NCBI RefSeq assembly: GCF_009193155.1
Contig: NZ_VUKD01000002.1
Coordinates: 1-64,000, forward strand
Reading direction: 5' to 3'
DNA from: Georgenia subflava
Lineage (GTDB): Bacteria; Actinomycetota; Actinomycetes; Actinomycetales; Actinomycetaceae
Length of the DNA: 64,000 nt
Part shown: positions 34,656-51,561 of the stretch, in pieces
Numbering within the stretch: position 1 is the stretch's first letter
Layout of the letters: the number at the start of each line of letters is the position of its first letter
Made by a program: the position numbers and the translations under genes
The notes under the pieces: model-generated
Databases searched by the model: none
What the model saw: only the letters and a program-made list of their open reading frames with translations
What the model was told of the DNA's origin: nothing

Positions 34656-36793
34656 CCGATCCGCTGCCACAGGAACTCGAAGGCCAGCGCCTGCATCAGG
34701 GCGGCCTGGGCGTTGGTCGCCGCCCCGCCGTGCCCGCCCTCGATGTTCTCGTAGTAGGTCACGTCCTTGCCGGCGTCGATCATCTGGGCCGCCATCTTCC
34801 GGGCGTGGCCGGGATGCACGCGGTCGTCGCGCGTGGACGTCGTGAACAGCACCGGCGGGTAGTCCCCGGCCGCGTCGAACAGGTGGTAGGCCGAGAAGTG
34901 CCGGATGAAGTCCCACTGCTCGGGGTCGTCCGGGTCGCCGTACTCGGCCATCCAGGACGCTCCGGCGAGCAGGTGGGAGTAGCGCTTCATGTCCAGCAGC
35001 GGCACCTGGCACACGATGGCGCCGAACAGCTCGGGGTACTGGGTGAGCATGTTGCCCATGAGCAGCCCGCCGTTCGAGCCGCCCTGCGCACCCAGGTGCT
35101 CGGTGTCGGTGACCCCCCGGGCCACCAGGTCGCGGGCGACCGCGGCGAAGTCCTCGTAGGCCTTGTGCCGGTTCGCCTTCAGGGCCGCCTGGTGCCAGCG
35201 CGGCCCGTACTCGCCGCCGCCGCGGATGTTGGCCACGACGTACACACCCCCGCGCTCGAGCCAGGCCCGGCCGATCCCGCCCGAGTAGGCGGGCACGCGG
35301 GAGATCTCGAACCCGCCGTAGCCGGCGAGGAGCGTGGGCATCGGCGCCACCTCGGCGTCGTCGGCGACCGGCTCGCGCGAGACCTGGAAGTAGGGCACGC
35401 GGGTCCCGTCCGCCGAGGCGACGAAGTGCTGCTCCACGTGCAGCCCGGTGGTGTCGAAGTAGGCCGGCAGCGACTTGAGCCGCTCCAGCCCGACCGTTGC
35501 GCCGTCGTCGTCGAGGTCCAGGCGGGAGAGCGTGGTCGGCGTGAGGAAGCCCGTGGTGGTCAGCCACAGCGCGTCCTCGGCGTCCGGGTCCACGGCCCCG
35601 ACGGCGATGGTCGCGAGCGCCGGCACCTCGCCGGTCGCCGTCCCGCCGGAGAGGTCGAGCGGACGACGGCGCCACACACCGGCCGCCCCGTCCGCCGGCG
35701 GGGTCAGCACCTCGAGCCGGTTGGCGACGTCGTCGAGGATGTTGAGCACCAGGTGGTGACGGGTCCAGCTCGCCCCGGCCAACGACGTCGTCGCGCTCGG
35801 GGTGTACAGCACCTCGAAGTCCCGCCCGCCGGTCAGAAAGCTCTCCAGTGCGACGGCGAGCAGGCTGCCACCGGGATAGGTGCGCCCGCCGACCTCCCAC
35901 TCCTCGCGCAGCTCGACGGTGAGCCACTCGCGGAAGAGGTCCGGCTCGGCGGACGCCGGGAGGTCGAGCAGCGTCAGCGTGTCGTCCGGGCCGAGCAGGT
36001 AGAGGTCGGAGTCGTAGAACGCGCGGTGCCGGAAGACCAGGTCGCGCTCGAAGCCCGGCGTGAAGTCGTGCCCGGCGCCGATGAGCATGTCGGTCGTCTC
36101 GCCGGCGTAGAGCTCCGGAGCCTCCTCGATCGGCGTGCCGCGCCGCCACCGGCGCACGGTGCGCGGGTAGCCGGACGTGGTCATCGAGCCCTCGCCGACA
36201 TCGGTGTAGACGAACACGACGTCGCCGGTGGAGTCGGCCCAGCCGATCCCGCCCTTGGACTCCTCGCGGGTGAAACCGTCCGGCACCCACGTCCGGGTGG
36301 TGAGGTCGAACTCGCGCGTGATGTCCGCGTCCGAGCCCCCGCGCGAGAGCTGCACCAGCGCCCGGTCGTACGAGGGACGCAGGACGTGGGCGCCGTGCCA
36401 GACCCAGTTGGCGCCCTCCGCCGCGTTGAGCGCGTCGACGTCGATCAGCACGTCCCACTCGGGCTCTGCGGTGCGGTAGGAGTCCCAGGTGGTGCGGCGC
36501 CACAGGCCACGCTCGTGGTCGGCGTCGGTCCAGAAGTTGTAGAGGAACTCCCCGCGCTGCACCACGGCGGGGATCTTGTCGGTCGAGTCCAGCACCTCCA
36601 GGGTGCCGCGGCGGATCTCCTCGAAACGTGCGCCCGCCAGCACCTCCTCGGCGTGGGCGTTGCGCTCGCGCACCCAGGCGAGCTGCTCGTCGCCCTCGAC
36701 GTCCTCCAACCAGGCGTAGCGGTCCTCGGGCTCGATGGTGACGGCCGTCCCGGCGGCGTCGAGGGCAGCGGTGGCATCAGTGGCGCGGGTCAT
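34652..36793 (-). CDS. Prolyl oligopeptidase (S9A family serine peptidase)
   Basis: A 713-residue cytoplasmic peptidase. A seven-bladed beta-propeller (about 60-430) precedes the alpha/beta-hydrolase domain. Catalytic Ser573 is in GAQGGSNGGLLMG, the Asp is in TSTRDDRVHPGHARKM and the His in EGGHGG. It should cut short peptides after proline. There is no signal peptide. Its stop overlaps the HIT start. The N terminus EDRYAWLEDVEGDEQLAWVR is typical of family S9A. Confidence 0.93.
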   Translation of the reverse strand: MTRATDATAALDAAGTAVTIEPEDRYAWLEDVEGDEQLAWVRERNAHAEEVLAGARFEEIRRGTLEVLDSTDKIPAVVQRGEFLYNFWTDADHERGLWRRTTWDSYRTAEPEWDVLIDVDALNAAEGANWVWHGAHVLRPSYDRALVQLSRGGSDADITREFDLTTRTWVPDGFTREESKGGIGWADSTGDVVFVYTDVGEGSMTTSGYPRTVRRWRRGTPIEEAPELYAGETTDMLIGAGHDFTPGFERDLVFRHRAFYDSDLYLLGPDDTLTLLDLPASAEPDLFREWLTVELREEWEVGGRTYPGGSLLAVALESFLTGGRDFEVLYTPSATTSLAGASWTRHHLVLNILDDVANRLEVLTPPADGAAGVWRRRPLDLSGGTATGEVPALATIAVGAVDPDAEDALWLTTTGFLTPTTLSRLDLDDDGATVGLERLKSLPAYFDTTGLHVEQHFVASADGTRVPYFQVSREPVADDAEVAPMPTLLAGYGGFEISRVPAYSGGIGRAWLERGGVYVVANIRGGGEYGPRWHQAALKANRHKAYEDFAAVARDLVARGVTDTEHLGAQGGSNGGLLMGNMLTQYPELFGAIVCQVPLLDMKRYSHLLAGASWMAEYGDPDDPEQWDFIRHFSAYHLFDAAGDYPPVLFTTSTRDDRVHPGHARKMAAQMIDAGKDVTYYENIEGGHGGAATNAQAALMQALAFEFLWQRIG

Positions 36794-36910: not shown

Positions 36911-37999
36911 CTACGACGCGCCGTCGGGCAGGGACGGCTCTGGAGCACCGGCACGCGCGAGCAGCTCGGTGAGCAGCTCGACGAACCGCACGGGCGCCTC
37001 CAGGTGCGGGCTGTGCCCCACGCCCTCGAGGACGACCTCCTCGTAGCGACCGCCGGCGGCCGCGTACCGGTCCAGGACCGTGCGGGTCTGCGTGACCATA
37101 GGCTGCGCCGGGTAGACGTCGGCGCCCGGCCAGCCGGGGACTGCGCCGATCGACCCGAGGTGGCCAAGGTCGAGCAGCGAGGTGTCCGAGACGATGGCGT
37201 CGACGTCGCCGCGCACCCAGGTCACCGGGCCGACCTGCGGCACGTCGGCGAAGTCGCTGAGGTCGTAGTACCTCGGCGAGAGCGCGTTGTTGATGCCGGT
37301 CGTCCCCGGACCGGTCCCCGGCCAGTTCTCGCTCGGCACGGTGCCGCCGGGGTAGTGGACCTCTCCGATGCGGGTGGACAGCACCGAGTCCAGCAGCAGG
37401 TCCTCGTCGGCGAGCTCGGTGCCGGGCGCCACGTAGAGCGCCCGGAACACGTTCAGCGGCGAGTGCGGGTGGTCGGTGGTGCGGTCGCCGGCCGCGATGG
37501 CGGCGGCGAAGTCCGGGTTGGCCGTGCCGCCGCCGGAGCCGGCGTGGTCGGGCCAGATCGGGGTCCCCTCGGCGTCCCCGGTCCCGCCGAAGCCGAACGG
37601 CGACGCCGGCGCCTCGAGCAGCACGGCACCCACCCGCTCCGGGTGGTCGACCGCGAGCTGCATGACCGCCCCCGCCCCGGCCGAGTGCGCCACGAAGGCG
37701 GCCCTCTCGATGCCCAGCGCGTCCATGAGCGCCGCGAGGTCGTCGGCGAAGTCACGCATGCCGCGGGTGGCGTCGATCGGCAGCGGCTCGGTGTCGCCGT
37801 ACCCGCGCAGGTCCGGCGCGATCCCGCGCCAGCCGGCGGGCAGCTCGCCGAGGAGCCGGTGGAAGAACGCCGACGACGAGCAGTTCCCGTGCACCAGGAC
37901 GACGGTGCCCGCCGGCGACGACGCCCCGCCCGGGTCGGTGTCGCGCACGTGGATGCGTGCCCGCGTCGTCGCGACGTCGTGCTCGGTGACCTGGCCCAT
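36911..37999 (-). CDS. Alpha/beta hydrolase
   Basis: A 362-residue alpha/beta-fold hydrolase. It has the oxyanion region LVHGNCSSSAFFHRLLGEL, the DLRGYGDTEPLP loop, the nucleophile elbow AHSAGAGAVMQL, and a late Asp (RGDVDAIVSD) and His (GVGHSPHLEAP) to complete the triad. A large lid region lies between. Substrate unknown; esterase, lactonase or haloalkane-type chemistry are all possible. It follows the thiolase gene on the same strand after a 216-base gap filled with tandem repeats, so it may or may not belong to that operon. Confidence 0.85.
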   Translation of the reverse strand: MGQVTEHDVATTRARIHVRDTDPGGASSPAGTVVLVHGNCSSSAFFHRLLGELPAGWRGIAPDLRGYGDTEPLPIDATRGMRDFADDLAALMDALGIERAAFVAHSAGAGAVMQLAVDHPERVGAVLLEAPASPFGFGGTGDAEGTPIWPDHAGSGGGTANPDFAAAIAAGDRTTDHPHSPLNVFRALYVAPGTELADEDLLLDSVLSTRIGEVHYPGGTVPSENWPGTGPGTTGINNALSPRYYDLSDFADVPQVGPVTWVRGDVDAIVSDTSLLDLGHLGSIGAVPGWPGADVYPAQPMVTQTRTVLDRYAAAGGRYEEVVLEGVGHSPHLEAPVRFVELLTELLARAGAPEPSLPDGAS

Positions 38000-38215: not shown

Positions 38216-39460
38216 TCAGCCCTCGAGGAGGAGTGCTTCGCCCTGTCCGCCGCCGCCGCAGAGCCCGACGGCGGCGCGGCCTCCGCCGGCCTGGGCGAGC
38301 TGGTGGGCGGCGTGGACGACGAGCCGGGCGCCGGAGGCGCCGATGGGGTGGCCGACGGCGATGCCGCCGCCGTGCGGGTTGACCTTGGCCGGGTCGGCGC
38401 CGAGCTCAGCGGTGGAGTGGGCGACGACGGCGCCGAAGGCCTCGTTGATCTCGATGAGGTCGAGGTCGGCCACGTCCCACCCCTGCCGCTGCAGCGCCTG
38501 GGCGATGGCCCGGGCGGGCTGGGCGTGCAGGGAGGCGTCGGGGCCGGCGACCTGGCCGGGGGAGCGCAGCGTGGCCAGGACGGTCCACCCCCGCTCGCCG
38601 GCGTGGGCACGGGTGGTCAGGACCACGGCGGCGGCGCCGTCGGAGATCTGCGAGGCGTTGCCGGCGGTGATCGACCCCTCCGGGGTGAACGCCGGGCGCA
38701 GCCTGCCCAGGGACTCCACGGTGGTCTCGGGGCGGATGCCCTCGTCCCGCTCGGCGACCGTCTCGCCCTTGCGGCCCGGCACGGTGACCGGGACGACCTC
38801 GGCGGCGAAGACCCCGTCGTCCCACGCCTTCGCGGCGCGCTGGTGCGACGCGGCGGCGACCTCGTCCTGCTGCTCGCGGGTCAGCGGGTAGGTGGACGCG
38901 GTCTTCTTGTCGGTGGCCAGGCCCATGGCCTCGCGGTCGTAGGCGTCGGTCAGGCCGTCGTGGGCCATGTGGTCGACGGCCTCGACGTTGCCGTAGGCCC
39001 ACCCGGCGCGCGATCCCATGAGCAGGTGCGGGGCGCCCGTCATCGACTCCATCCCGCCGGCGACGACGACGGTCGCCTCGCCGGAGCGGATCAGGCGGGC
39101 GGCGTCGATGATGGCGCTCAGCCCGGACAGGCAGACCTTGTTGACCGTGGTGGCGTGCGCGGACCACGGGATCCCGGCGCCGACGGCGGCCTGGCGGGCC
39201 GGGGCCTGCCCGGCGCCGGCCTGGAGCACCTGGCCCATGTACACGGCCTCGACCTCGCCGGGGTCGATACCGCCGCGCTCCAGGGCGCCGGCGATCGCCG
39301 TAGTGCCGAGCTGGACACCGGTCAGCGGGGCGAGCTGGCCCTTGAGCCGGCCCTGCGGGGTCCGGGCCGCCGCCACGACGACGACGTCGGAGCCGGCCGG
39401 GACGCCGGCTCCGGCAGCGGAGTGCGCCGCGCCCGGTGCGGGTGTGGTCTCGGTGCTCAC
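38216..39460 (-). CDS. Acetyl-CoA C-acetyltransferase (thiolase)
   Basis: A 414-residue thiolase that splits acetoacetyl-CoA into two acetyl-CoA. The acylated Cys110 is in NKVCLSG; the C-terminal motifs are [29 protein letters not shown] and the second active Cys in [10 protein letters not shown]. About 22 extra residues precede the usual start. GTG start overlapping the CoA-transferase B stop by four bases. It is the last gene of the eleven-gene cluster and supplies its final step. Confidence 0.94.
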
Positions 39461-40119
39461 GCGTCCACCTCCACGGCGCTGAGGTGCTCGGAGACGATCA
39501 GCTCGGGCTCGGTGCGCTCCTTGACCTCACCGGCCGTCACGCCGGGAGCGAGCTCGATCAGGACCAGGCCCCGGTCGGTGACGTCGATGACCGCGAGGTC
39601 GGTGATGATCCGGTCCACCACCCCACGCCCGGTCAGCGGCAGCGAGCAGGCGTCGACGATCTTGGCCGAGCCGTCCTTGGCGTTGTGGTCCATCAGGATG
39701 ATGACCTTCTTCGCCCCGTGGACCAGGTCCATCCCGCCGCCCGGGCCCTTGACCATCTTCCCCGGGATCATCCAGTTCGCCAGGTCCCCATCCTTCGAGA
39801 CCTGCATCCCGCCCAGGATCGCGACGTCGATCTTCCCGCCACGGATCATCCCGAAGGACGTCGCCGAGTCGAAGAACGCCGCCCCCGGCAGCGTGGTCAC
39901 CGTCTCCTTCCCGGCGTTGATCAGATCCGGGTCGACCGCTTCCTCGTACGGGTACGGACCCACCCCGAGGATGCCGTTCTCCGACTGCAGCACCACCTGC
40001 ATGCCCGCCGGCACATAGTTCGGGACCATCGTCGGCATCCCGATCCCGAGGTTGACATAGGACCCGTCGGACAGCTCCAGGGCCGCCCGCGCGGCCATCT
40101 CCTGACGCGTCAGTGCCAT
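39457..40119 (-). CDS. scoB: 3-oxoacid CoA-transferase subunit B
   Basis: A 220-residue subunit with the catalytic Glu in the signature [11 protein letters not shown] and the usual start [20 protein letters not shown]. With subunit A it moves CoA from succinyl-CoA to acetoacetate. DNA here is unusually rich in long runs shared with other actinobacterial copies, as expected for a conserved gene. Start overlaps subunit A's stop by one base (TGATG) and its stop overlaps the thiolase start by four. Confidence 0.94.
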
Positions 40120-40931
40120 CAGCTCATCCCCTCACTACGCACGGTGCGCTTCTCGATCCGCTTCTCGGTCCCGGTCCCGACGTGGACCAGGCGGTGGACG
40201 TAGATCCCCGGCAGGTGCACCTCGTCCGGGCCGATCTGACCGGGCTCGACGAGCTCCTCGACCTGCGCGATGCACACCCGCCCGGCCATCGCCGCCAGCG
40301 GGTTGAAGTTCCGGGCCGCCTTGTTGAACACCAGGTTCCCGTACCGGTCACCCTTCCACGCGTGCACCAGGGAGAAGTCCGTCGCGATCGCCTCCTCCAG
40401 CACGTACTCCCCGCTCTGCCCGCCCAGGGAGAAGGAGCGCACCTCCTTGACCGGCGACGCCTTCGCCACCCCGCCCGCGCCGTCGTAACGCTGCGGCAGA
40501 CCGCCCTCGGCCACCTGGGTGCCCACCCCGGTCGTGGTGAAGAACGCCGCGATCCCCGACCCGCCGGCCCGCAGCTTCTCCGCCAGCGTGCCCTGCGGGG
40601 TCAGCTCGACCTCCAGCTCGCCGGAGAGGAACTGACGCTCGAACCCCTTGTTCTCACCCACGTACGACGCCGTCATCTTCGCCAGCCGGCCCGCACCGAG
40701 CAGCAGCCCCAGGCCCCAGTCGTCCACGCCGCAGTTGTTCGACACCACCGACAGGTCCTTGGCGCCCTGCGCCAGCAGCGCCTCGATCAGCGCCATCGGG
40801 TTGCCCGAGAGGCCGAAGCCACCCACGGCCAGCGACGCACCGTCCCCGATGTCCGCGACCGCCTCCGCGGCCGAACCCACCACCTTTTCCAGACCGCGGG
40901 TGGGTCGCGGCTCCGTCGTCGTGCTGGTCAT
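40119..40931 (-). CDS. scoA: 3-oxoacid CoA-transferase subunit A
   Basis: A 270-residue subunit. It has the CoA-binding [16 protein letters not shown], the [16 protein letters not shown] signature and the end region [20 protein letters not shown], all typical of the SCOT alpha subunit. It works with the B subunit encoded directly downstream to activate acetoacetate. The ATG at 40931 overlaps the stop of the upstream hydrolase gene by four bases. Acetoacetate is the expected product of the dehydrogenase encoded two genes upstream. Confidence 0.94.
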
Positions 40932-41836
40932 CGTCGAGCTCCTTCCAGGACGTTCGTGATCTTCTCCGCCACGGCGCCCGCGCCCGCGGTGCTCATGACG
41001 ATCGTGTAGTGGTTGACGTCCGGCACGTCCGCCGTCGTCAGCGAGGGCAGCCGCTGCGACCAGCGTGCCACGTGCTCCGGCGCGTAGAGCGGGTCGCCGT
41101 CCTGCAGGCCGCGTGGTGCCCGCAGGAAGTGGGTGGGTACGGACAGCCCGTCGAGCGCCGGCAGCAGGGACTCGCCGGTGACGAGCTCGCGCTGGTCGCC
41201 GGTGACCGCGGGGAGGCGGGACGAGGGGCGCCACACGCCGTCGACGGCCTCGAGGTCGTAGTCGAAGTAGGTGCCGAGCCGCTCGGACCACTGCCCCACG
41301 AAGGCGGGGTGCCCGCGCCAGAAGTCCCGGTACGCCTCCGGGTCGGGGAACGTCATCGACAGCCGCTCGGCGGCCGGCCCCAGCACCGCCTGCATCACCA
41401 CGTCGGGGTCCAGGTCGGTCGGGACGTCCAGCGGCAGACCGCCGTCGACCAGCAGGAGCGCGGACACCAGCTCGGGGTGGCGGTGGGCGAGGACCACGGA
41501 GGCGAAGCCGCCCATGGAGTGGCCGACGACGACGACCGGCCCGGCGCTCGTCTGCCGCAAGAGCGCGGCGAGGTCGTCCGCGTGCCGGCCCATGCCGTAC
41601 GGCCCGGCCAGGGCGTTGCTGCGGCCACGCCCGCGCAGGTCCGGAGCGACCACGCGCACCCCGGGGAGCGCCGGCGGCAGGAAGTTCCACGCCTGGTGGG
41701 TGGCGGTGATGCCGTGCACCGCCAGGACCGTGGGGACCGTCGCGTCGTCGGCGACCGCGGCCGGCTCCCAGACGCCCGCGTGCAGCAGGCCGCCGTCGAC
41801 CGCGACGTCGAGCTGGGAGTAGGTGAGCGTGCTCAT
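40928..41836 (-). CDS. Alpha/beta hydrolase of the ketone-body cluster
   Basis: A 302-residue hydrolase. Motifs: VLAVHGITATHQAWNFL (oxyanion hole), DLRGRGRSNALAGPYG, nucleophile GHSMGGFASV, and a late His in VNHYTIVMS. No signal peptide is present, so it acts in the cytoplasm. Inside this cluster it may hydrolyse an imported ester or oligomer of 3-hydroxybutyrate, or an enol-lactone; this is inferred from context. Four-base overlaps on both sides show that it belongs to the operon. Confidence 0.87.
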   Translation of the reverse strand: MSTLTYSQLDVAVDGGLLHAGVWEPAAVADDATVPTVLAVHGITATHQAWNFLPPALPGVRVVAPDLRGRGRSNALAGPYGMGRHADDLAALLRQTSAGPVVVVGHSMGGFASVVLAHRHPELVSALLLVDGGLPLDVPTDLDPDVVMQAVLGPAAERLSMTFPDPEAYRDFWRGHPAFVGQWSERLGTYFDYDLEAVDGVWRPSSRLPAVTGDQRELVTGESLLPALDGLSVPTHFLRAPRGLQDGDPLYAPEHVARWSQRLPSLTTADVPDVNHYTIVMSTAGAGAVAEKITNVLEGARR

Positions 41837-42588
41837 CGCGCGTGCCACCCCCCGTCCAGGGTGTAGGAGGAGCCCGTGGCCATGGCGGCGTCGGGGCCGG
41901 TCAGCCAGCACACGAGCGAGGCCACCTCGTGCGGCTCCACCATGCGCTTGACCGACTGCTCGGTCAGCAGGACCTTCTCGAGCACCTCGTCCTCGGTGAT
42001 GCCGTGCACCCTGGCCTGGTCGGCGATCTGCTTCTCGACCAGGGCGGTGCGCACGTACGCGGGGTTGATGCAGTTGCTCGTCACGCCCCTCGCGGCACCC
42101 TCCAGCGCCGTGACCTTGCTCAGCCCCTCGAGGGCGTGCTTCGCGGTGACGTAGGCGGACTTGAACGGCGACGCGACCAGGCCGTGCACCGAGGAGATGT
42201 TGACGACCCGGCCCCAGCCGCGCGCGTACATGTGCGGCAGCGCGGCGCGCACCAGCAGGAACGGTGCCTCGACCATGATCCGCTGGATGCGGCGGAAGTC
42301 CTCCGGGGCGAACTCCTCGATGGGGCTGACCACCTGGATCCCGGCGTTGTTGACGAGGATGTCCGCCTCGAGGCTCAGCTCGTCCAGCGCCCGGGTGTCG
42401 TCCAGGTCCACCGCCCAGACCTCGCCGGCCACCTCCTTGGCGACGACGGCGGCCGCCGCCTCGTCCCGGTCGGCGACGACGACGTAGGCGCCCCGGCCGG
42501 CGAGGGCCCGGGCGCAGGCGGCGCCGATCCCGGCACCGCCGCCGGTGACCACCGCCCGTCGGCCGTCGAGGGGTCGGTCTTCGCTCAT
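41833..42588 (-). CDS. bdhA: 3-hydroxybutyrate dehydrogenase (SDR)
   Basis: A 251-residue short-chain dehydrogenase. NAD-binding VTGGGAGIGAACARAL, NNAGIQ, the catalytic Ser in NISSVHGLVAS and Tyr/Lys in YVTAKHAL are present. The order NISSVHGLVASPFKSAYVTA is typical of D-3-hydroxybutyrate dehydrogenase, which makes acetoacetate with NAD. Neighbouring CoA-transferase and thiolase genes would carry on to acetyl-CoA, which strengthens the assignment. Overlaps tetR and the hydrolase by four bases each. Confidence 0.88.
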   Translation of the reverse strand: MSEDRPLDGRRAVVTGGGAGIGAACARALAGRGAYVVVADRDEAAAAVVAKEVAGEVWAVDLDDTRALDELSLEADILVNNAGIQVVSPIEEFAPEDFRRIQRIMVEAPFLLVRAALPHMYARGWGRVVNISSVHGLVASPFKSAYVTAKHALEGLSKVTALEGAARGVTSNCINPAYVRTALVEKQIADQARVHGITEDEVLEKVLLTEQSVKRMVEPHEVASLVCWLTGPDAAMATGSSYTLDGGWHAR

Positions 42589-43220
42589 GGTGCTCCTTCG
42601 GGGGAGAGGGCGCGCTCGACGAGGCGCATGACGTGGTCGAAGATCTCCGCCGGCAGGCCGTCGGGGGCGGCGCCGTCGGTGCCGGCGCCCGCACCGTCGC
42701 GGCCCCAGAGCACCCAGCGCATGCCGACCATCTCGCCGATGCCCATCAGGGCCCAGGCGGCGACCTCGGTGTCGACGTCGGGGGCGACCTGGCCGTTGTC
42801 CTGGGCCCCGGTCAGGCCGGCGACGTACCCGCGGGCGATCGTCTCGTAGTGCATGTGCAGCACCTCGGGCGCGACGAACTCGGCCTGGCGCATGATGCGG
42901 TAGAGCGCGGGGTTCTCGGCGGTGAACCGGAAGAAGGCGCGGAAGCCGGCCCGTTCGGCGTCGAGCCGCTCGGTCTCGGCGCTGGAGGCCTCGAACATGG
43001 CGCGGCGCACCCGCGAGTTCAGGTCCCGCACGACCTCCTCGAAGATCTCCTGCTTCGAGGAGAAGTAGAGGTAGAACGTGCCCTGGCCCACCTCGGCGGC
43101 CTCCGTGATCTTCACGATCGAGGCGTCGTGGTAGCCGCGCTCGGCGAAGACCTCGGTGGCGACGGCGAGAATCCTGGCCCGCGTGCGCGTCCCGCGCTCG
43201 GTCCTGGGCTGGGTGCTCAT
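42585..43220 (-). CDS. TetR-family regulator of the ketone-body cluster
   Basis: A 211-residue repressor. The helix-turn-helix is at about 12-57 (RTRARILAVATEVFAERGYH, then ITEAAEVGQGTFYLYFSSKQ); the rest is a ligand-binding helical domain with AENPALYRIMRQAEFVAP, common in regulators of acyl-CoA metabolism. It is encoded in the middle of the operon with four-base overlaps on both sides, so it would be autoregulated. A palindrome at 49671-49689, just after the operon promoter, is a candidate binding site. Confidence 0.9.
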   Translation of the reverse strand: MSTQPRTERGTRTRARILAVATEVFAERGYHDASIVKITEAAEVGQGTFYLYFSSKQEIFEEVVRDLNSRVRRAMFEASSAETERLDAERAGFRAFFRFTAENPALYRIMRQAEFVAPEVLHMHYETIARGYVAGLTGAQDNGQVAPDVDTEVAAWALMGIGEMVGMRWVLWGRDGAGAGTDGAAPDGLPAEIFDHVMRLVERALSPEGAP

Positions 43221-44779
43221 GACGACGCCTCCGTCCGCCCGGTGCGCAGCGCGCTGCGCCGGACCTTGTGCAGCGCGGTCCGCGGCAGGTGCTCGACGAA
43301 GCTCACCGACCGCGGCGCCTTGAACGTCGCCAGGTGCGCGCGGCAGTGCTCGACCAGCTCGTCGGCGCTGACCGTGGCGTCCGGCGCGCGGACGACGAAC
43401 GCGTGGCCGACCTCGCCCCAGCGCTGGTCCGGCACGCCGACGACGGCGACGTCGACGACGTCCGGGTGCTTGGCCAGGGCGGCCTCGACCTCCGCGGGCG
43501 AGATGTTCTCCCCGCCGCTGATGTACATGTCGGTGAGGCGGTCCACGATCCGGTAGAAGCCGTCGGCGTCTCGCTCGGCGAGGTCGCCGGTGTGCAGCCA
43601 GCCGCCCTGGAGGGCGGTCGCGGTCGCCTCCGGGTCGCGGAAGTAGCCGGCGAACACGGCCGGCCCGCGCACCACCAGCTCGCCGCGGGCCGCGCCGTGC
43701 AGCAGCGCGCCGGAGGACGGGTCGGTCAGGGCCACCTCGACGTGCGGGTAGGGCTTGCCGACCGACCCGACGTGGTCGACAGCCTCCGCCGACGGCAGGG
43801 CCAGGACGTTCGGGGACGCCTCGGTGAGCCCGTACCCCTGGATGATGCGCACGCCGCGCTCGTTCCAGGTGTGCAGCAGCGGCTCGGGCATCGGCGCCCC
43901 GCCGACGACGGCGTGGGTCAGGCCGGCGAGGTCCGCCGCCGCGAACCCGGGGTGCTCGGCGAGGCGCTGGTAGGTGGTCGGCACGCCCATCATGGTGGTC
44001 ACCCGCCGCCGGTCGAGCAGGTGGAGCACCGACCCGGCATCGAAGTCCGGCTCGAGGATCACCGTCGCGCCGGTCCACCACGCCAGCAGCGGCTGGATGT
44101 TCCAGCCGCCGACGTGGAACTGGGGCAGGACGGAGAGCACCACGTCCTGGTTGGTCATGCCGGTCGCGAGGGAGAGCGAGAGGTTGGTCCAGAAGCAGTT
44201 CTCGTGCGAGAGCAGCACGCCGCGCGGTGCCCGGGCCGTGCCGGAGGTGTAGATCAGCAGCAGCGGGTCGTCGTCGGCGACGCTGCGCGGGGCCGACGCC
44301 GGCACGCCGTCGGGCCGGGACGGGCCGGGGACGTGCTGCTCGACGCCGTCGGGCCCGAGGAGCTCCACGGGCGGCGGGACGTCGAGCTGGGCCAGGGCCG
44401 CGCGGGCGTCGGCGGCGAGGCCGGCCTGGACGGCAACGAGCGCCGGCCGGGCGTGGCGCAGCTGGTAGGCCAGCTCCTCGGTCGCCAGCCGCCAGGACAT
44501 CGGGACCAGCACGAGCCCGGCCTTGGCGCACGCGAAGAACAGGACCACGTGGTCGGTGCTGTTGTGCGTCAGCGTCGCGATCCGGTCGCCCGGGGCGTAC
44601 CCGGCGCGCAGCAGCCGCTCGGCCAGCCCGGTGGCCCGCGCGTCGAGCTCGGCGTAGGTGGTGGTGGCGCCGCGGTGGTCGACGGCCACCTTGTCGGGGG
44701 CCAGGCGGGCCCGGTCGCGGGTCCACCGGCCGAGGGTGTGCCAGCCGGGCTCGCCGGGCGGGACGGGCAGGGCACTCAC
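43217..44779 (-). CDS. AMP-forming acyl-CoA synthetase
   Basis: A 520-residue adenylate-forming ligase. The P-loop-like motif is LIYTSGTARAPRGV (the usual T/S-G-T-T-G-x-P-K is altered to GTARAPR), then GYGLTEASPN, and LHTGDLAERDADGFYRIVDR with the catalytic Lys in PRTALHKVRR. It should activate a carboxylic acid taken up by the transporter. The substrate could be 3-hydroxybutyrate, acetoacetate or another short acid. GTG start overlapping the livM stop; stop overlaps tetR. Confidence 0.9.
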   Translation of the reverse strand: MSALPVPPGEPGWHTLGRWTRDRARLAPDKVAVDHRGATTTYAELDARATGLAERLLRAGYAPGDRIATLTHNSTDHVVLFFACAKAGLVLVPMSWRLATEELAYQLRHARPALVAVQAGLAADARAALAQLDVPPPVELLGPDGVEQHVPGPSRPDGVPASAPRSVADDDPLLLIYTSGTARAPRGVLLSHENCFWTNLSLSLATGMTNQDVVLSVLPQFHVGGWNIQPLLAWWTGATVILEPDFDAGSVLHLLDRRRVTTMMGVPTTYQRLAEHPGFAAADLAGLTHAVVGGAPMPEPLLHTWNERGVRIIQGYGLTEASPNVLALPSAEAVDHVGSVGKPYPHVEVALTDPSSGALLHGAARGELVVRGPAVFAGYFRDPEATATALQGGWLHTGDLAERDADGFYRIVDRLTDMYISGGENISPAEVEAALAKHPDVVDVAVVGVPDQRWGEVGHAFVVRAPDATVSADELVEHCRAHLATFKAPRSVSFVEHLPRTALHKVRRSALRTGRTEASS

Positions 44780-45954
44780 GCCAGCTCCTCCAGGCGACGG
44801 CGCTCGGCGGACTCCTCGGCCGTCTCCGCGTGCGAGCCGGCGGACCGGGCGGTCGCCGGGCGCCGGCGACGCAGCCGGTGCGCACCGCCGGCGATGCCGC
44901 CGGGCATGAACAGCACCACGAGGATGAACAGCACCCCGACGATGAAGGCCGGCTCGCTCAGCGGCACGTGCAGCAGGGTGGGGAGGGAGTCCACGAGCTC
45001 CGAGGACGCGAGGACGCCCAGACGCTGGTCGAGCAGGGTGTAGACGATCGCGCCGACCACCGCGCCCCACCGGGACCCGACGCCGCCGAGGACGACCATG
45101 ATGAGCACCTGGATGGTGAAGTCCGCGGAGGTGATGGTCGGCACCGCCTGGGACTGCAGCAGCAGGTAGACCATGCCGATCAGCGCGGCGAGGCCGCCGG
45201 CGATGACGAACGTGAGCAGCCGGATGAGGTACGGCGGCTGCCCGATGACGCGCACGCGCATCTCGTTCTCGCGGGTCGCCTCGACGACGTGCCCGGCGCG
45301 GGAGCGCTGCGTCCACGTGACGACGACGTAGACGAGCACCAACGCTGCCAGCGCCACCCAGAACATGTTCCGGGTGTTGACGACACCGATGAGGGCGTCG
45401 GGCACGAGGGTGGTGGTCAGGCCGACGCCCTCCTCGCCACCGGTCGCGCCGCCGGGGTCGCGTCGGACCATGACGTTGCCGGCCTGGGCGAAGGCGAGGG
45501 TCACCATGGCGAAGGAGACGCCGGAGACCCGCAGGGAGACGGCCCCGACCAGCGTGGACAGGACGATCGCCGCGACGAGGGAGATCGCGGCGGCGACCAG
45601 CAGCGGCAGCCCGGTGCGCTCGAGCAGGATGGCCAGTCCGTACGCCCCGGCGGCGAAGTACAGGGCGTGGCCGAAGCTGAGCATGCCCGCCACGCCGTAG
45701 AGCAGGTGGTAGCTCAGCGCGAGAGCGGCGAAGATCATGCACAGCGCCATCAGGTGCAGGCTGCCCGGCGTGTAGGTCGGTCCCGGGAGGATGCCCGGCA
45801 GCGGGATGTTCAGCAGCGGCAGGCACGCGGCGACGACGACGGCGACGACGCCGACGAGCCAGCCGGGTACGGCCCGCCGCCGCGGGGCGGAACGGGGCGC
45901 GGGCGCCGGCGCGGCGGTCTCGACGGGGGTCTGGGTGGAGGTGGGGGTGCTCAT
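44776..45954 (-). CDS. livM: Branched-chain-type ABC transporter permease LivM
   Basis: A 392-residue permease with about ten membrane helices, LivM type. After a Pro/Ala-rich cytoplasmic start (about 1-28), it shows LHLMALCMIFAALALSYHLL, YGVAGMLSFGHALYFAAGAY and the ATPase-docking region RENEMRVRVIGQPPYLIRLL. An acidic, disordered C-terminal tail (AETAEESAERRRLEELA) is unusual. With LivH it forms the channel. Start overlaps livH's stop and its stop overlaps the ligase start, both by four bases. Confidence 0.92.
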   Translation of the reverse strand: MSTPTSTQTPVETAAPAPAPRSAPRRRAVPGWLVGVVAVVVAACLPLLNIPLPGILPGPTYTPGSLHLMALCMIFAALALSYHLLYGVAGMLSFGHALYFAAGAYGLAILLERTGLPLLVAAAISLVAAIVLSTLVGAVSLRVSGVSFAMVTLAFAQAGNVMVRRDPGGATGGEEGVGLTTTLVPDALIGVVNTRNMFWVALAALVLVYVVVTWTQRSRAGHVVEATRENEMRVRVIGQPPYLIRLLTFVIAGGLAALIGMVYLLLQSQAVPTITSADFTIQVLIMVVLGGVGSRWGAVVGAIVYTLLDQRLGVLASSELVDSLPTLLHVPLSEPAFIVGVLFILVVLFMPGGIAGGAHRLRRRRPATARSAGSHAETAEESAERRRLEELA

Positions 45955-46829
45955 GCTGCTTTCGCTCCCATCAGTCCGGTCGGTCGCAGGAGCAGGACGA
46001 CGGCGAGGGCGAGGACGGCGATGAGGTCGCCGTAGCCCCACAGGTAGTAGTTGGCGAGCTGCTGCGGGATCGCCACGAGCATCGCCGCGACGGCCGCGCC
46101 GCCGATCGAGCCCAGGCCGCCGATGACGGTGACGATGAAGGCGAAGATCAGCAGGGTCTGGCCGAGGTGTGCGGAGACGTAGTTGTAGTACTGCGAGGCC
46201 AGTACGCCGCCGAGCCCGGCGGCGGCGCCGCCGATGGAGAAGACCAGGGTGAAGGACCTGCGCACGTCGATGCCCAGCGCGGTGACCATCGACCGGTTCT
46301 CGACGCCGGCCCGGATGATCAGGCCGTACCGGGTGTGCCTGAGGAAGAGGACCAGGCCGCCGAGGAGGGCGGCGGCGACCGCGATGGCGAGGAAGTTGCT
46401 GTTGGGGATGCGCGCCCCGAGGATCTCGGTGGTCCCGGCCATCCACGCCGGGCCGGAGATGATGATGGCGTCCGTGCCCCAGAATCCCTCGAAGAGCGCG
46501 ATGCCGACGAGGCCGAGCCCGACCGTGACCAGCACCTGCTCGATGTGCCGGTTGTACAGCGGCCGGATGAGCAGGAGCTCGGTCAGGGCGGCGACGAGGG
46601 CACCGGCGAGGGCGCCGACGAGCATGGCGGCGAGGAACCCGGTCCAGGTGCTCGGGCCGAGCCGAAGGGCGACCTCCCAGCCGACGAAGGCGCCGAGCGA
46701 GAGGAAGACGCCGTGGGCGAAGTTCAGCACGCCCATGAGGCCGTAGATGAGCGACAGGCCGGAGGCGACGAGGAAGTACAGCGCCCCCAGCCCCAGGCCG
46801 GTGACGAGCAGCAGGAAGACGGTGCTCAC
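45951..46829 (-). CDS. livH: Branched-chain-type ABC transporter permease LivH
   Basis: A 292-residue permease with about eight membrane helices. Typical LivH features are ASGLSLIYGLMGVLNFAHGV near residue 23 and the docking loop with GVENRSMVTALGIDVRRSFT. GTG start. The pair LivH/LivM normally imports amino acids, but relatives carry amides, urea, aromatic and short-chain acids; the neighbouring catabolic genes suggest an organic acid here. Four-base overlaps on both sides. Confidence 0.93.
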   Translation of the reverse strand: MSTVFLLLVTGLGLGALYFLVASGLSLIYGLMGVLNFAHGVFLSLGAFVGWEVALRLGPSTWTGFLAAMLVGALAGALVAALTELLLIRPLYNRHIEQVLVTVGLGLVGIALFEGFWGTDAIIISGPAWMAGTTEILGARIPNSNFLAIAVAAALLGGLVLFLRHTRYGLIIRAGVENRSMVTALGIDVRRSFTLVFSIGGAAAGLGGVLASQYYNYVSAHLGQTLLIFAFIVTVIGGLGSIGGAAVAAMLVAIPQQLANYYLWGYGDLIAVLALAVVLLLRPTGLMGAKAA

Positions 46830-47554
46830 TGGGTTCCCCCCGGTGCGGTGGTGGCGGTGTCGGCGTGCACGCCGAGGAGGCGGTGGACGGCTTCGTCGTC
46901 GTCGAGCAGGGTGCGGGCGTCACCGGTGTGCACGACAGTGCCGGCGTCGATGACGACGACGTCCCCGGCGAGCCGTTCGATCACGGGCAGGTTCTGCTCC
47001 ACGAGCAGGATCGGCACCGTGCGCGCCGCCTCCTCGAGCGCCTCGGCGACCTCGGTGACGATCTTCGGCGCCAGCCCCTTGGTGGGCTCGTCCACGAGCA
47101 GCAGCCGGTTGGTGTTGAGCAGGGCACGGGCCAGCGACAGCATCTGCTGCTGACCGCCCGAGAGCGTGCCGGCCTTCTGCCCCGAGCGGCGGACGAGGTC
47201 GGGGAAGAGCTGGTCGACGAGCTCGCGACGCGGCGTGGCGTCACGGGCGGCCAGCCGGAGGTTCTCCGCCACGGTGAGGCCGGCGAAGACCTCGCGGTCC
47301 TCCGGGACGTAGCCGATGCCGCGGCGGACGATCTTGTGGGTGTCCTCGCGGTCGATGCGCTCGCCGGCGAACTCGACGCGGCCGGACCGGCCGATCAGAC
47401 CCATGATCGCCTTCATCGTGGAGGTCTTGCCCACGCCGTTGCGGCCGAGGACGGCGGTGACGCCGGTCGCCGGGACGGAGAAGGTGACGTCCTCGACGAC
47501 GAGCTGGCCGTCGATGGTGGCGGAGAGGTGCTCGACCTCCAGGATGGCGCTCAT
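46826..47554 (-). CDS. livF: ABC transporter ATP-binding protein LivF
   Basis: A 242-residue ATPase. Walker A is GRNGVGKT near 36-43, the Q-loop region GYVPEDREVFAGLTV is typical of LivF, the signature is LSGGQQQML, and Walker B LLLVDEP precedes TKGLAPKI. The H-loop residue is replaced by Gln in LLVEQNL, as is normal for LivF proteins. With LivG it powers the importer. Overlaps livG and livH by four bases each. Confidence 0.94.
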   Translation of the reverse strand: MSAILEVEHLSATIDGQLVVEDVTFSVPATGVTAVLGRNGVGKTSTMKAIMGLIGRSGRVEFAGERIDREDTHKIVRRGIGYVPEDREVFAGLTVAENLRLAARDATPRRELVDQLFPDLVRRSGQKAGTLSGGQQQMLSLARALLNTNRLLLVDEPTKGLAPKIVTEVAEALEEAARTVPILLVEQNLPVIERLAGDVVVIDAGTVVHTGDARTLLDDDEAVHRLLGVHADTATTAPGGTQ

Positions 47555-48312
47555 GCGGCGGCTCCCAGGTAGGCGCTCTGCACGAGCGGGTCGGCCATGA
47601 TCTTCTGCGGCTCGTCCAGGGCCAGGATCGTGCCCTGGTGCAGGACGGCGACGCGGTCGACCAGGTCCATGACGACGTCGATGTGGTGCTCGACCATGAG
47701 CACGGTGCAGCCGTGGTTGCGGTGCATGCCGCGGATGACCTCGGACAGGCCCGGCACGTCGGCGCGGGCGACGCCGGCCATCGGCTCGTCGAGGAGGATC
47801 ACGGACGGGTCCATCGCCAGGAGGACCGCGATCTCGAGCTTGCGCTTGTCGCCGTGGCTGAGCCCGCCGGCGGTGGCGTCGGCCAGGGGGACGAGCCCGA
47901 CCTCGTCGAGGTGCGCCAGGGCGATGCGGGTGGCGTCGTCGCTCCGGCGCGGGAAGCGCAGCACGGAGAGGTTGCCGCCCAGGCGGCGTTGCGCGGACAG
48001 TCGCACGTTCTCGAGCACGCTCAGGCCCGGGAAGAGGTTGGAGGTCTGGAAGGTGCGGCCGAGGCCGGCACGGGCGCGTCGGTGGATCGGCTCGTGCGTG
48101 ATGTCCTTGCCGTCGAGGAGGATGCGGCCGGCGGTGGGGGCGTGGATCCCGGAGACCATGTTGAACAGGGTCGTCTTGCCGGCCCCGTTGGGACCGATGA
48201 CGCCGATGATCTCGCCGGCCGGGACCTCCAGGTCGACGTCGGTGAGGATCTTCGCGCCGCCGACGGCGAAGCTGAGCTTCTCGACGGTCAGCGCGGCAGA
48301 GCTGGGAGACAT
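47551..48312 (-). CDS. livG: ABC transporter ATP-binding protein LivG
   Basis: A 253-residue ATPase. Walker A GPNGAGKT, the LivG-type RTFQTSNLFPGLSVLENVRL, a modified signature LSHGDKRKLEIA, Walker B VILLDEP with MAGV, and VMVEHHIDVVM as the His switch. Five-residue departures from the consensus LSxGxQ are common in LivG. It lies 95 bases after the binding-protein gene, the only real gap in the cluster, and overlaps livF by four bases. Confidence 0.94.
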   Translation of the reverse strand: MSPSSAALTVEKLSFAVGGAKILTDVDLEVPAGEIIGVIGPNGAGKTTLFNMVSGIHAPTAGRILLDGKDITHEPIHRRARAGLGRTFQTSNLFPGLSVLENVRLSAQRRLGGNLSVLRFPRRSDDATRIALAHLDEVGLVPLADATAGGLSHGDKRKLEIAVLLAMDPSVILLDEPMAGVARADVPGLSEVIRGMHRNHGCTVLMVEHHIDVVMDLVDRVAVLHQGTILALDEPQKIMADPLVQSAYLGAAA

Positions 48313-48407
48313 GGTGGCCTTCCGGTGGGGCGTGCGACAGGCCCCGGCCCGGGCGGACCCGGTGGGCGCCCGGGCCAGGGCCTGTCGCGGTGGTCGAGCG
48401 GACGGGG

Positions 48408-49649
48408 TCAGCCGGCCTCGGGCGGGGCGACGTCCTCGCCGGCGACCTCGCCGACGAGCTCGGGCACCCAGCCGCCGGAGCCGTCGGAGACGAGCTTGGC
48501 CTGGTACATCGGCTGGATGAGCGCGTGGTCGGACTCGCGGATGGTGTAGCTGCCCTTGGGGCCGTCGAAGGACCAGCCCTCGAGCGCGGCGATCATCGCG
48601 TCGACGTCGTCGGCGCCGCCGGCCTCCTCGATCGCGTGCACGATCATCTGGGCGGCGGTGAAGCCGTCCGGGGTGAAGAGGTCCGGCGTGCCGCCGTTGG
48701 CCTCGACGTGCTCGATCATCGCGGCGTTGATCTCGTTGTCCGCGGCGCCCGGGAAGTAGTGGTTGAGGAAGTCGATCTTGTCCGACGCCGCGCCGTAGGC
48801 GTTGTACGTCGAGGTGTCGCCGAGGCCGGTGACGACCGTGATGTCGTCCAGGACGCCCTGCTGGTCGAGCGCCTGCCACATGGCGCCGGAGGTGGCGCCG
48901 GCCCAGGCCACGAAGACCATCTCGGGTGCGGCGTCGAGGACCTGCGCGGCGAAGGGGGTGAACTCGGTGACGTCCTCGGGGACCATGACGGACGTGACCT
49001 CGGCGCCGGCCGCGCCGAGCAGGCCGTCGACGGCGGCGAGGTTGCCCTGGCCGAAGGCGTTGTCCTGCGCGAAGACGAGGACCTGCTGGCCCTCGACGTC
49101 GATGAACGAGCCGGCGGTGGCGACGTCCTGCATCGACTGGCGCCCGGAGCGGAACGTGTAGTCGTTGATGCCGGTCACGGCGTCGGCGGCCGCCGGGCCG
49201 GAGACGTAGAGGACCTTGTTCTGCTCGGCCTGCTCGGCCAGCGAGAGCGCGATGCCCGAGGACGCCGTGCCGGTGAGGATGGTGTAGCCCTGGCCGATGA
49301 CGTCGCGGGCCTGGGCGACGGCGCGGTCGGTGTCGCCGCCGTCGTCGATGAACTCGACGACGATCTCGCTGCCGTTGACCTCGCCGGTGCCGTCGGTGGC
49401 GTGGTCGAGGCCGGCCTCGAAGCCGTCGATGAAGGTCTCGCCGTAGGCCGCGAGCGGCCCGGTGGTGGAGGTGATGAGGGCGACGTCGATCGGGTCGCCC
49501 GCCGGCTCCTCCGCCCCCTCGGTGGTCGAGCCCTCGCTGGACTCGGACGTGGTGTCCTCCCCGCCGCCCGTCGAGGGAGCGCACGCGGCGACGGCCATCA
49601 TGGTCGCGACGCCGAAGGTCAGGGCGAGGGACTTCTTCGTGACTCGCAT
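48408..49649 (-). CDS. ABC transporter substrate-binding lipoprotein (Liv type)
   Basis: A 413-residue periplasmic-type binding protein. The signal sequence is MRVTKKSLALTFGVATMMAV with lipobox AVAACA, then a Ser/Thr/Glu/Gly-rich linker of about 30 residues. The mature domain is a type I fold (DVALITSTTGPLAAYGETFI, then GFEAGLDHAT) like LivJ/AmiC-type proteins. It defines what the transporter imports; I infer a short hydroxy- or keto-acid from the genes behind it. The ATG at 49649 has gaaagg upstream. First gene of the cluster, directly behind a good promoter. Confidence 0.93.
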   Translation of the reverse strand: MRVTKKSLALTFGVATMMAVAACAPSTGGGEDTTSESSEGSTTEGAEEPAGDPIDVALITSTTGPLAAYGETFIDGFEAGLDHATDGTGEVNGSEIVVEFIDDGGDTDRAVAQARDVIGQGYTILTGTASSGIALSLAEQAEQNKVLYVSGPAAADAVTGINDYTFRSGRQSMQDVATAGSFIDVEGQQVLVFAQDNAFGQGNLAAVDGLLGAAGAEVTSVMVPEDVTEFTPFAAQVLDAAPEMVFVAWAGATSGAMWQALDQQGVLDDITVVTGLGDTSTYNAYGAASDKIDFLNHYFPGAADNEINAAMIEHVEANGGTPDLFTPDGFTAAQMIVHAIEEAGGADDVDAMIAALEGWSFDGPKGSYTIRESDHALIQPMYQAKLVSDGSGGWVPELVGEVAGEDVAPPEAG

Positions 49650-49670: not shown

Positions 49671-49689
49671 ACCTCTCAACCTGAGAGGT
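49671..49689. promoter_or_regulatory. Palindromic operator before the ketone-body cluster
   Basis: ACCTCTCA (49671-49678) and TGAGAGGT (49682-49689) form a perfect inverted repeat with a three-base spacer. On the minus strand it lies between the promoter -10 box and the first gene, where a bound repressor would stop transcription. The TetR protein encoded in the operon is the obvious candidate. Confidence 0.75.
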
Positions 49690-49704
49690 GATTCAGGTAG
49701 TGGA

Positions 49705-49733
49705 ATCATGTGGCGCACGCCACGCCCTGTCAA
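49705..49733 (-). promoter_or_regulatory. Sigma-70-type promoter of the ketone-body cluster
   Basis: On the minus strand, TTGACA (49733-49728) is a perfect -35 box, followed by 17 bases and CATGAT (49710-49705), one base from TATGAT. This is the best promoter match I see in the window. Confidence 0.75.
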
Positions 49734-51011: not shown

Positions 51012-51104
51012 CTGACGGCCTCCAGGGGAACTGAGCATGCCCGAGGCGGTCGACCCGCCCTTCATCAGACCGATCAATCTACCCACCGTGACGGCTCGCG
51101 CGGA

Positions 51105-51170
51105 GGCGGCTCGACACGCGAGTGCGACGAAGGCGGCGGCTCGACACGCTGGCGCGACGAAGGCGGCCAC
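51105..51170. repeat. 30-bp tandem repeat upstream of the EamA gene
   Basis: Two units with tcgacacgc at 51111 and 51141, each ending gcgacgaaggcgg, with a third partial unit to the left. They lie in the spacer between the MT0933-like gene and the EamA gene. Confidence 0.7.
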
Positions 51171-51213
51171 CCCGCGGGGACGGCCGCCTTCGCGGACCTG
51201 CCGGCCGGCCGGG

Positions 51214-51396
51214 CTACTCGTCGCCGATCTTCTTGTCGGCGGCGCCGGTGCCCTTGTCCAGGTGCTCGTCGTACTTGCCGCCGGTCTTGTCGCTGGCGAA
51301 GTCCGAGCCCTTCTCCAGGGCGTCGTCGCTCATCTGCTCGCCCTTGTCGCTGTTCGCGAAGTCCTTGGCCTTGTCTCCGAGGTCTCCGATACCCAT
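51214..51396 (-). CDS. MT0933-like small antitoxin-family protein
   Basis: A 60-residue, highly charged, Gly/Asp/Lys-rich protein, MGIGDLGDKAKDFANSDKGE at the start and GGKYDEHLDKGTGAADKKIG near the end. This pattern is that of the PF14013 family (MT0933/Rv0909 antitoxins). No toxin gene adjoins it, so its role may be different, for example stress protection like CsbD-type proteins. A paralogue lies at 53182. The ATG has aggaga upstream. Divergent from the amidase. Confidence 0.75.
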   Translation of the reverse strand: MGIGDLGDKAKDFANSDKGEQMSDDALEKGSDFASDKTGGKYDEHLDKGTGAADKKIGDE

Positions 51397-51561
51397 GGTC
51401 GTCTCCTCCGATCGACGCGCCGCCAGATGCGGCACTGCCAGATCGAGTCTCGCGGCGCCCCGGCGGCCCGGCAACCGGAGCGGACCGTCCGGACCGACGG
51501 CTCGCCGACGTTCGCGACCGCACCGGTGCGCCGCCTCCGCAGGTGCCGTTACGGTCGGTCC

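Follow-up and report, generated by a model that had tools for sequence, protein, structure and literature searches.

Why does a Liv-type ATP-binding cassette (ABC) importer share an operon with the genes of ketone-body catabolism, and what does it import? We address this question for a gene cluster of Georgenia subflava (genome of 4.3 Mb) on the minus strand of contig NZ_VUKD01000002.1, whose first 64,000 nucleotides make up the whole stretch of DNA analysed here, referred to as the window. Read from 49649 to 38216, the cluster has twelve genes, for a binding protein, livG, livF, livH, livM, an acyl-CoA ligase, a TetR-family regulator, a short-chain dehydrogenase/reductase (SDR) assigned as 3-hydroxybutyrate dehydrogenase (BdhA), an alpha/beta-hydrolase, the two subunits of a 3-oxoacid CoA-transferase (scoA and scoB) and a thiolase; all frames are open, with zero inner stops (Table 1). 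Our best explanation, in which we have slightly more confidence than doubt, is that the operon scavenges ester-linked 3-hydroxybutyrate from outside the cell, above all the short oligomers that arise from depolymerisation of poly(3-hydroxybutyrate) (PHB). PHB is a storage polymer and a commercial bioplastic, and the uptake of its breakdown products seems little described.

Importer and ketone-body genes recur together

The genes of the cluster are tightly packed. A spacing of +95 bases separates the binding-protein gene from livG, nine junctions are 4-base overlaps (livG/livF, livF/livH, livH/livM, livM/ligase, ligase/tetR, tetR/SDR, SDR/hydrolase, hydrolase/scoA and scoB/thiolase), and scoA and scoB overlap by one base (TGATG). 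The initial annotation had described these junctions correctly but counted eleven genes where, with the binding-protein gene, there are twelve; its gene identities are backed by Pfam and NCBIfam scans. Since the same gene order recurs in other genera, the cluster is more than a chance arrangement.

Three sets of genomes were searched for the binding protein, two of them also for BdhA. Within the family (200 genomes including the source genome), the binding protein (E ≤ 1e-20) was found in nine genomes and BdhA (E ≤ 1e-60) in eight; the ninth genome with the binding protein and without BdhA is 57% complete, and its contig ends inside the cluster. One genus-mate (G076) has neither protein. Across the order (396 genomes including the source genome; E ≤ 1e-70 for the binding protein and E ≤ 1e-60 for BdhA), 45 genomes carry the binding protein and 124 carry BdhA. 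BdhA accompanies the binding protein in 44 of these 45 genomes and is present in 80 of the 351 genomes without it (Fisher p = 4e-24, kinship ignored). In 38 genomes with the binding protein, both genes lie on one contig, their starts at most 11.1 kb apart; bdhA lies on another contig in G343, G555, G315, G357, G463 and G214, and none was found in G446. A phylum-wide set of 396 genomes yielded the binding protein (E ≤ 1e-60) in nine, five of them new.

To the window we added 40 of the 44 other order-level loci (without G526, G367, G419 and G214), eight family-mate loci and the best 80 named loci. Dropping identical copies left 115 loci, 94 of them with enough flanking sequence, in which the presence of a gene was scored by tblastn with identity thresholds. 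livGFHM and the alpha/beta-hydrolase gene are present in all 94, the ligase gene and tetR in 88 each, and bdhA in 85, five times on the opposite strand. A CoA-transferase gene for either subunit was detected in at least 60 loci, together with bdhA in 58, and a thiolase gene in at least 35; the CoA-transferase and thiolase counts are lower bounds, the named loci ending about 11 kb past the start of the binding-protein gene. When every locus long enough for the gene in question is counted, the hydrolase gene is found in 102/102, the ligase gene in 97/105 and tetR in 97/104. The initial annotation had proposed the coupling of importer and ketone-body genes, and had named beforehand what would speak against it, namely a Liv set standing apart from ketone-body genes in most relatives. 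Instead, 87 of the 94 loci keep bdhA, a CoA-transferase gene or both. The coupling is not due to chance.

A likely operator upstream of the binding-protein gene

Between the putative promoter and the binding-protein gene lies a palindrome, ACCTGAATCACCTCTCAGGT, which is the sole match in the window at up to three mismatches (0.20 expected). Of the 115 non-identical loci, 94 have it upstream of the binding-protein gene, and the consensus of these 94 sites, ACCTGAATCACCTTTCAGGT, is an inverted repeat whose seven-base arms are separated by six bases. Among the 104 loci that could be judged, 87 have both tetR and the site, ten have tetR without an exact site (with a near match in L128, L133, L192 and L201), none has the site without tetR and seven have neither; the palindrome is thus found in none of the seven loci that lack tetR.

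We also searched 18 whole genomes for the 17-base operator core, which is present in 17. Sixteen of the 18 have a single copy, which lies upstream of the binding-protein gene, G458 has two (one extra site) and G357 has none; the source genome has it once. The same pattern read backwards was found in none of the 18, and the bdhA genes that lie elsewhere in G343, G555 and G315 have no exact site. Since the core is confined to this single position in 16 of the 18 genomes, the operator is nearly private to the operon. The palindrome is likely a dedicated TetR operator, with TetR binding predicted from the pattern of occurrence. In that case TetR would cover the palindrome just after the -10 element and repress the operon until an intermediate is bound.

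Class and ligand of the binding protein

The importer has the make-up of HAAT (Liv-type) systems, a Peripla_BP_6 binding protein with two ATPases and two permeases. The best models for LivG, LivF, LivH and LivM are of Liv and Urt type, with scores under the equivalog cut-offs of those models, and the N-terminus of the binding protein is lipoprotein-like by eye. In a structure search, the AlphaFold model of the binding protein (mean pLDDT 86.1) came nearest to the solved fold 3n0x (RPA4397 of Rhodopseudomonas palustris, 34% identity); next was 4ey3, which was solved with p-hydroxybenzoic acid bound. The search returned HAAT-type proteins, matches that do not decide the ligand, and a literature search for the PDB codes gave no match.

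Could this be an ordinary branched-chain amino acid importer that stands by chance beside the catabolism of leucine-derived ketone bodies? The Liv family name would fit, as would the fact that leucine catabolism yields acetoacetate. Yet none of the twelve genes encodes a recognisable leucine-pathway enzyme, and the binding protein scores 60.3 bits with the LivJ/K-type model NF011933, far under the cut-off of 477. The leucine-complexed proteins 4n0q and 3ipc have an acidic residue, which we take to bind the ammonium group of the ligand, where T274 and L276 align in the window protein (own count). All 20 aligned relatives keep T274, G275 and L276 unchanged. We regard an amino-acid importer as highly improbable. 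A departure of Liv-type proteins from branched-chain amino acids is to be expected because, in a screen of R. palustris (PMC3223731), such proteins favoured organic acids over leucine, isoleucine or valine, their ligands being other amino acids or aromatic, fatty and dicarboxylic acids. The novelty would lie in the proposed substrate.

Catabolic enzymes and the proposed pathway

We compared the catabolic enzymes with family models and solved structures. BdhA scores 261.3 bits with NF009093 (cut-off 258), 302.3 with TIGR01963 (cut-off 307.05) and 229.9 with NF009931 (cut-off 340), and its best solved relatives are 3-hydroxybutyrate dehydrogenases. Gln94, His144, Lys152 and Gln196, which we take to be the substrate-binding residues of 3-hydroxybutyrate dehydrogenase, are kept as Q85, H135, K143 and Q187 in an alignment with the 2yz7 chain (own count), and Trp187 of this alignment corresponds to Tyr178; a literature search for BdhA substrate residues found none. 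Both CoA-transferase subunits score above the cut-offs of TIGR02429 and TIGR02428, models that span SCOT and PcaIJ alike. The thiolase is above the TIGR01930 cut-off and under every equivalog model among the matches listed; it scores 406.2 bits with the acetyl-CoA acetyltransferase model PRK08235 (cut-off 526) and at most 276.4 with 3-oxoadipyl-CoA models. A beta-ketoadipate (PcaIJF) function was set aside, and it stays as a caution for the CoA-transferase, whose models do not separate the two. The ligase is under the cut-off of each NCBIfam model listed (the best 25 of 106 matched). Since the ligase and both hydrolases (that of the cluster and a second one that follows it) score above Pfam cut-offs and reach no listed NCBIfam cut-off, their substrates rest on context; we propose the roles of the hydrolases on that basis and do not class them as members of a PHA (polyhydroxyalkanoate) depolymerase family.

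In the proposed pathway, the binding protein and LivGFHM would import an oligomer or ester at the expense of ATP, and the cytoplasmic alpha/beta-hydrolase, perhaps together with a second hydrolase encoded downstream, would release (R)-3-hydroxybutyrate from the import product. BdhA would convert this acid to acetoacetate, the CoA-transferase would activate acetoacetate, and the thiolase would yield two acetyl-CoA, all reactions known for these families. The acyl-CoA ligase may provide a second activation route.

The same enzymes would serve an importer with high affinity for free (R)-3-hydroxybutyrate or acetoacetate, for which the hydrolase would be a side activity. These are the very acids on which the families of BdhA, the CoA-transferase and the thiolase act, and the genes of these enzymes are tightly linked to the importer. 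However, the hydrolase gene is kept even in those seven of the 94 loci that have neither bdhA nor CoA-transferase genes nearby, and permeases of the free-acid type are found close by. An AtoE-type permease is encoded inside two Georgenia clusters, L017 (PF02667, 400.7 bits) and L018 (TIGR00366, 392.3 bits, under the cut-off of 575.75). A major facilitator superfamily (MFS) permease gene stands beside bdhA in six of the 94 loci, and in four of ten further bdhA loci (five from genomes with the importer and five from genomes without) that have no binding-protein gene in the stretch. These AtoE-type and MFS permeases likely serve the free acids. Because the hydrolase is constant and permeases of this type adjoin, the ABC system seems to import something else that yields the acids, and we consider import of the free acids unlikely.

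Possible links to extracellular PHB

In 11 of the 94 loci, a gene for a PHB-depolymerase-type protein (query, the G460 protein) is divergent from the binding-protein gene. Five of these loci are from Promicromonospora, four from Cellulosimicrobium and one from Sphaerisporangium, by record titles; the remaining one is G460, in which one of three depolymerase matches has this position, with the operator between the two genes. The Cellulosimicrobium locus L136 has no such divergent gene. The N-terminus of the protein is hydrophobic and resembles a signal peptide. The one of the 11 that was scanned (L078) scores 175.5 bits with NF050058 (cut-off 150), the model for type-1 extracellular PHA depolymerases, and 182 bits with TIGR01840 (cut-off 107.85); NF050058 has the status of a hypothetical equivalog, and esterases of other kinds belong to the family as well. 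Among the solved relatives are acetylxylan and feruloyl esterases and a PHB-depolymerase-family esterase. On a Rhodococcus qingshengii plasmid, a 58% identical depolymerase-type enzyme is encoded within about 7 kb of BdhA, a LysR regulator and an MFS permease, the last 61% identical to the G460 permease beside BdhA; transposase genes lie between the depolymerase-type gene and the bdhA region.

We searched NF050058 in 68 genomes, 34 with the importer (out of 58 such genomes found) and 34 chosen from genomes with BdhA and without the importer; seven of the 68 have a protein above the cut-off. PHA synthase (PhaC_N) was found in none of the 34 tested genomes with the importer system, and the Caulobacter control was positive. 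It is therefore improbable that BdhA in these genomes works on PHB of the cell's own making, and the substrate probably comes from outside the cell.

Observations that weigh against import of 3-hydroxybutyrate oligomers

Several observations weigh against our explanation. Seven of the 94 loci (L187, L189, L193, L198 and L199 from Arthrobacter and Pseudarthrobacter, and L100 and L101) keep importer and hydrolase and have no gene for BdhA or CoA-transferase nearby. The Georgenia clusters L021, L022 and L024 lack bdhA; their genomes hold a 65-66% identical copy elsewhere. Five distant loci from the phylum set (L117-L121), outside the 94, are mixed in content. The hydrolase is present in two (L117 and L118) and a BdhA-like SDR (42-46%) in two (L119 and L120), of which L120 also encodes CoA-transferase A, on the opposite strand. 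Ligase and tetR are present in L119 and L121, the L121 genome having one stop in the binding-protein frame.

Relatives on plasmids are similarly varied. We examined eight of 11 plasmid matches, leaving out three from Dinoroseobacter, and found the hydrolase beside the importer in six of the eight and BdhA in one. Mariluticola halotolerans, from another phylum, speaks for our explanation with the order bdhA-binding protein-livGFHM-hydrolase; its BdhA is 43% identical to that of the window and above the TIGR01963 cut-off, and the two hydrolases share 33% identity over 107 aligned residues. Four relatives (Nitratireductor, Hoeflea, Mameliella and Roseinatronobacter) combine binding protein-livGFHM-hydrolase with a TetR regulator and carry, instead of BdhA, an AMP-binding ligase, an enoyl-CoA hydratase and a MaoC-type gene; BdhA is absent within 10 kb, and the ligases of Nitratireductor and the window share 38% identity. 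Ligase, MaoC and enoyl-CoA hydratase could turn an (R)-3-hydroxyacyl-CoA into the enoyl-CoA and this into the (S) form, a second route for (R)-3-hydroxy acids. A Chloroflexota relative has a hydrolase gene directly upstream, plus genes for a CoA-transferase and a ketoacyl synthase, and in Rhodococcus opacus and Haematobacter the relatives stand among different partners, with no alpha/beta-hydrolase next to them.

The proteins themselves add further points. In the alignment, Met105 of BdhA takes the position of Asn114, which we take to be the catalytic Asn of the SDR tetrad; His occupies this position in the 4trr chain, which likewise bears the name 3-hydroxybutyrate dehydrogenase. Both hydrolases are under all listed NCBIfam cut-offs, those for PHA depolymerases included; NF050089, the model for intracellular short-chain-length PHA depolymerases and the best NCBIfam match of the second hydrolase, gives 38.2 bits for the first and 80.7 for the second (cut-off 300). 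Genomes with the importer show no enrichment of depolymerases above the NF050058 cut-off (4/34 genomes with and 3/34 without), and the source genome has none. The ligand of the binding protein is one that we infer.

In another explanation, the importer would serve a different carboxylic acid or ester (for instance a branched, aromatic or fatty acyl ester) through the hydrolase and ligase, with the ketone-body genes finishing a common acetoacetyl product. The constant core of importer, hydrolase, ligase and tetR is in keeping with this, as are the MaoC and enoyl-CoA hydratase genes of the four alphaproteobacterial relatives and the binding of aromatic and fatty acids by R. palustris Liv-type proteins (PMC3223731). 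Such a substrate would leave unexplained both the presence of BdhA in 85 of the 94 loci and the PHB-depolymerase-type gene that adjoins the system in 11. Characterised BdhA members are specific for 3-hydroxybutyrate, and we judge a different acid or ester to be quite improbable.

On balance, the operon is real, conserved and under a likely operator of its own, and for 3-hydroxybutyrate oligomers or esters as its ligand the chances appear a little better than even. The initial annotation had suggested 3-hydroxybutyrate, acetoacetate or an ester or oligomer as substrate. The ester or oligomer branch of that guess gains from the constant hydrolase, the divergent depolymerase-type genes and the separate permeases of free-acid type; the seven loci without BdhA or CoA-transferase speak against a strictly ketone-body importer, as does the presence of BdhA in a single plasmid relative of eight. 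More tentatively, and with somewhat more doubt than confidence, we propose a widespread ATP-driven importer of 3-hydroxybutyrate oligomers, equipped with a dedicated TetR operator and with an esterase that finishes depolymerisation in the cytoplasm, by which actinobacteria that make no PHB would live on the PHB of others. Such a system would fill a gap in PHB biodegradation, the step of uptake, and would have relatives in other phyla.

Variants of the cluster and neighbouring genes

The make-up of the cluster varies in ways that touch its regulation. In L102 and L104-L107 the Liv-hydrolase operon lacks ligase, tetR and operator, and bdhA is encoded on the other strand beyond an intervening gene (F16); F16 of L105 resembles the GAF-type regulator of L038. 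A relative of an IclR-type regulator (type assigned by eye) occurs in 22 of the 94 loci, where it can stand divergent between the hydrolase and CoA-transferase genes (for example in L082, L084, L086 and L145). From this position, the ketone-body half seems to be controlled separately in Microbacterium; IclR-type regulators often accompany pca genes. Two record labels may be wrong, as L138 (Sphaerisporangium cinnabarinum) is much like the loci of Cellulosimicrobium and L170 (a metagenome-assembled genome of Acidobacteria) much like actinobacterial ones.

A second bdhA copy in the source genome, on contig 7 (L038; 5804-6901, 7134-7622, 7627-9552 and 11205-14912), is truncated to residues 82-250. 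It adjoins an IS110-family transposase gene, with a GAF/PucR-type regulator next, and is convergent to another Liv-type operon; similar neighbours are found in Georgenia L039-L041. By eye, this copy and the BdhA of G460 also have Met at the position of the catalytic Asn.

Relatives of the second hydrolase gene, which follows the cluster in the window, lie near 35 of the 94 well-flanked loci, on the strand of the operon in 34. In three of the six other Georgenia loci that show it, the gene is on the opposite strand, and we do not count it as a firm member of the cluster for that reason. A divergent amidase gene (51037-53004) lies upstream of the binding-protein gene, its product being extended at the N-terminus by about 175 residues, and it has the same position in all seven other Georgenia loci with enough flank. 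An oligopeptidase-B-like gene (34652-36793) follows the cluster, likewise in five of the six other Georgenia loci long enough.

Table 1 Features of the operon and its upstream region in the window, with the assignments favoured here
Feature	Position	Strand	Evidence
Binding protein, Liv (HAAT) type, 413 aa	48408..49649	-	PF13458 196.8 bits, cut-off 31.7
livG, ATPase	47551..48312	-	NCBIfam scan
livF, ATPase	46826..47554	-	NCBIfam scan
livH, permease	45951..46829	-	NCBIfam scan
livM, permease	44776..45954	-	NCBIfam scan
Acyl-CoA ligase (AMP-binding), 520 aa, GTG start	43217..44779	-	PF00501 285.5 bits
TetR-family regulator	42585..43220	-	PF00440 59.5 bits
3-Hydroxybutyrate dehydrogenase (bdhA), SDR family	41833..42588	-	NF009093 261.3 bits, cut-off 258
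Alpha/beta-hydrolase, proposed cytoplasmic esterase/oligomer hydrolase	40928..41836	-	PF00561 83.8 bits
3-Oxoacid CoA-transferase subunit A	40119..40931	-	TIGR02429 231.8 bits, cut-off 128.5
3-Oxoacid CoA-transferase subunit B	39457..40119	-	TIGR02428 327.1 bits, cut-off 243.55
Thiolase (acetyl-CoA C-acyltransferase), GTG start	38216..39460	-	TIGR01930 411.5 bits, cut-off 240.55
Second alpha/beta-hydrolase, possible accessory esterase	36911..37999 (or 38152, start uncertain)	-	NF050089 80.7 bits, cut-off 300
Putative -35-like hexamer TTGACA of the operon promoter	49728..49733	-	17-base spacer to CATGAT
Putative -10-like hexamer CATGAT	49705..49710	-	Six bases before the palindrome
Putative TetR operator ACCTGAATCACCTCTCAGGT	49679..49698	-	Inverted repeat ACCTGAA-N6-TTCAGGT, one mismatch here

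Relation to known systems

New in this analysis are the palindrome operator, the divergent PHB-depolymerase-type gene in 11 of the 94 loci and the absence of PhaC_N from 34 genomes. The titles and abstract openings among the matches listed from the open-licence PubMed Central (PMC) literature describe no Liv-type importer that takes up 3-hydroxybutyrate, acetoacetate or oligomers of these, nor do the portions available of PMC12542648 and PMC12906555. If our explanation is true, the operon supplies uptake parts, a regulator and an operator; the automatic annotation of such genes as branched-chain amino acid transporters would then be corrected.

The system can be set beside several known ones. 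With LivJ/LivK-LivHMGF, the branched-chain amino acid importer of the HAAT class, the window importer has the five-part architecture and the folds in common. Its genomic partners, by contrast, are catabolic enzymes, its binding protein scores far under the LivJ/K-type cut-off, and the acidic residue of the leucine-complexed relatives is missing at the aligned position. The HAAT proteins of R. palustris use the Liv architecture for organic acids, as we propose here, and include the nearest solved protein, RPA4397; the main text of PMC3223731 does not mention hydroxybutyrate, acetoacetate or RPA4397. A bacterial uptake gene is annotated for 3-hydroxybutyrate in Pseudomonas putida, the D-beta-hydroxybutyrate permease BhbP (PP3074), which is named in tables of PMC6296734 as a permease and not as an ABC system. 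The AtoE/SCFA_trans and MFS permeases occur in or near the same clusters, but are secondary transporters, likely for free acids. Bacteria that degrade PHB have an extracellular PHB depolymerase and an intracellular oligomer hydrolase, and we propose a like division of labour, with a depolymerase outside and a hydrolase inside. The hydrolases of the window differ from theirs in scoring under the PHA-depolymerase cut-offs, and to this scheme the window locus adds an ABC importer.

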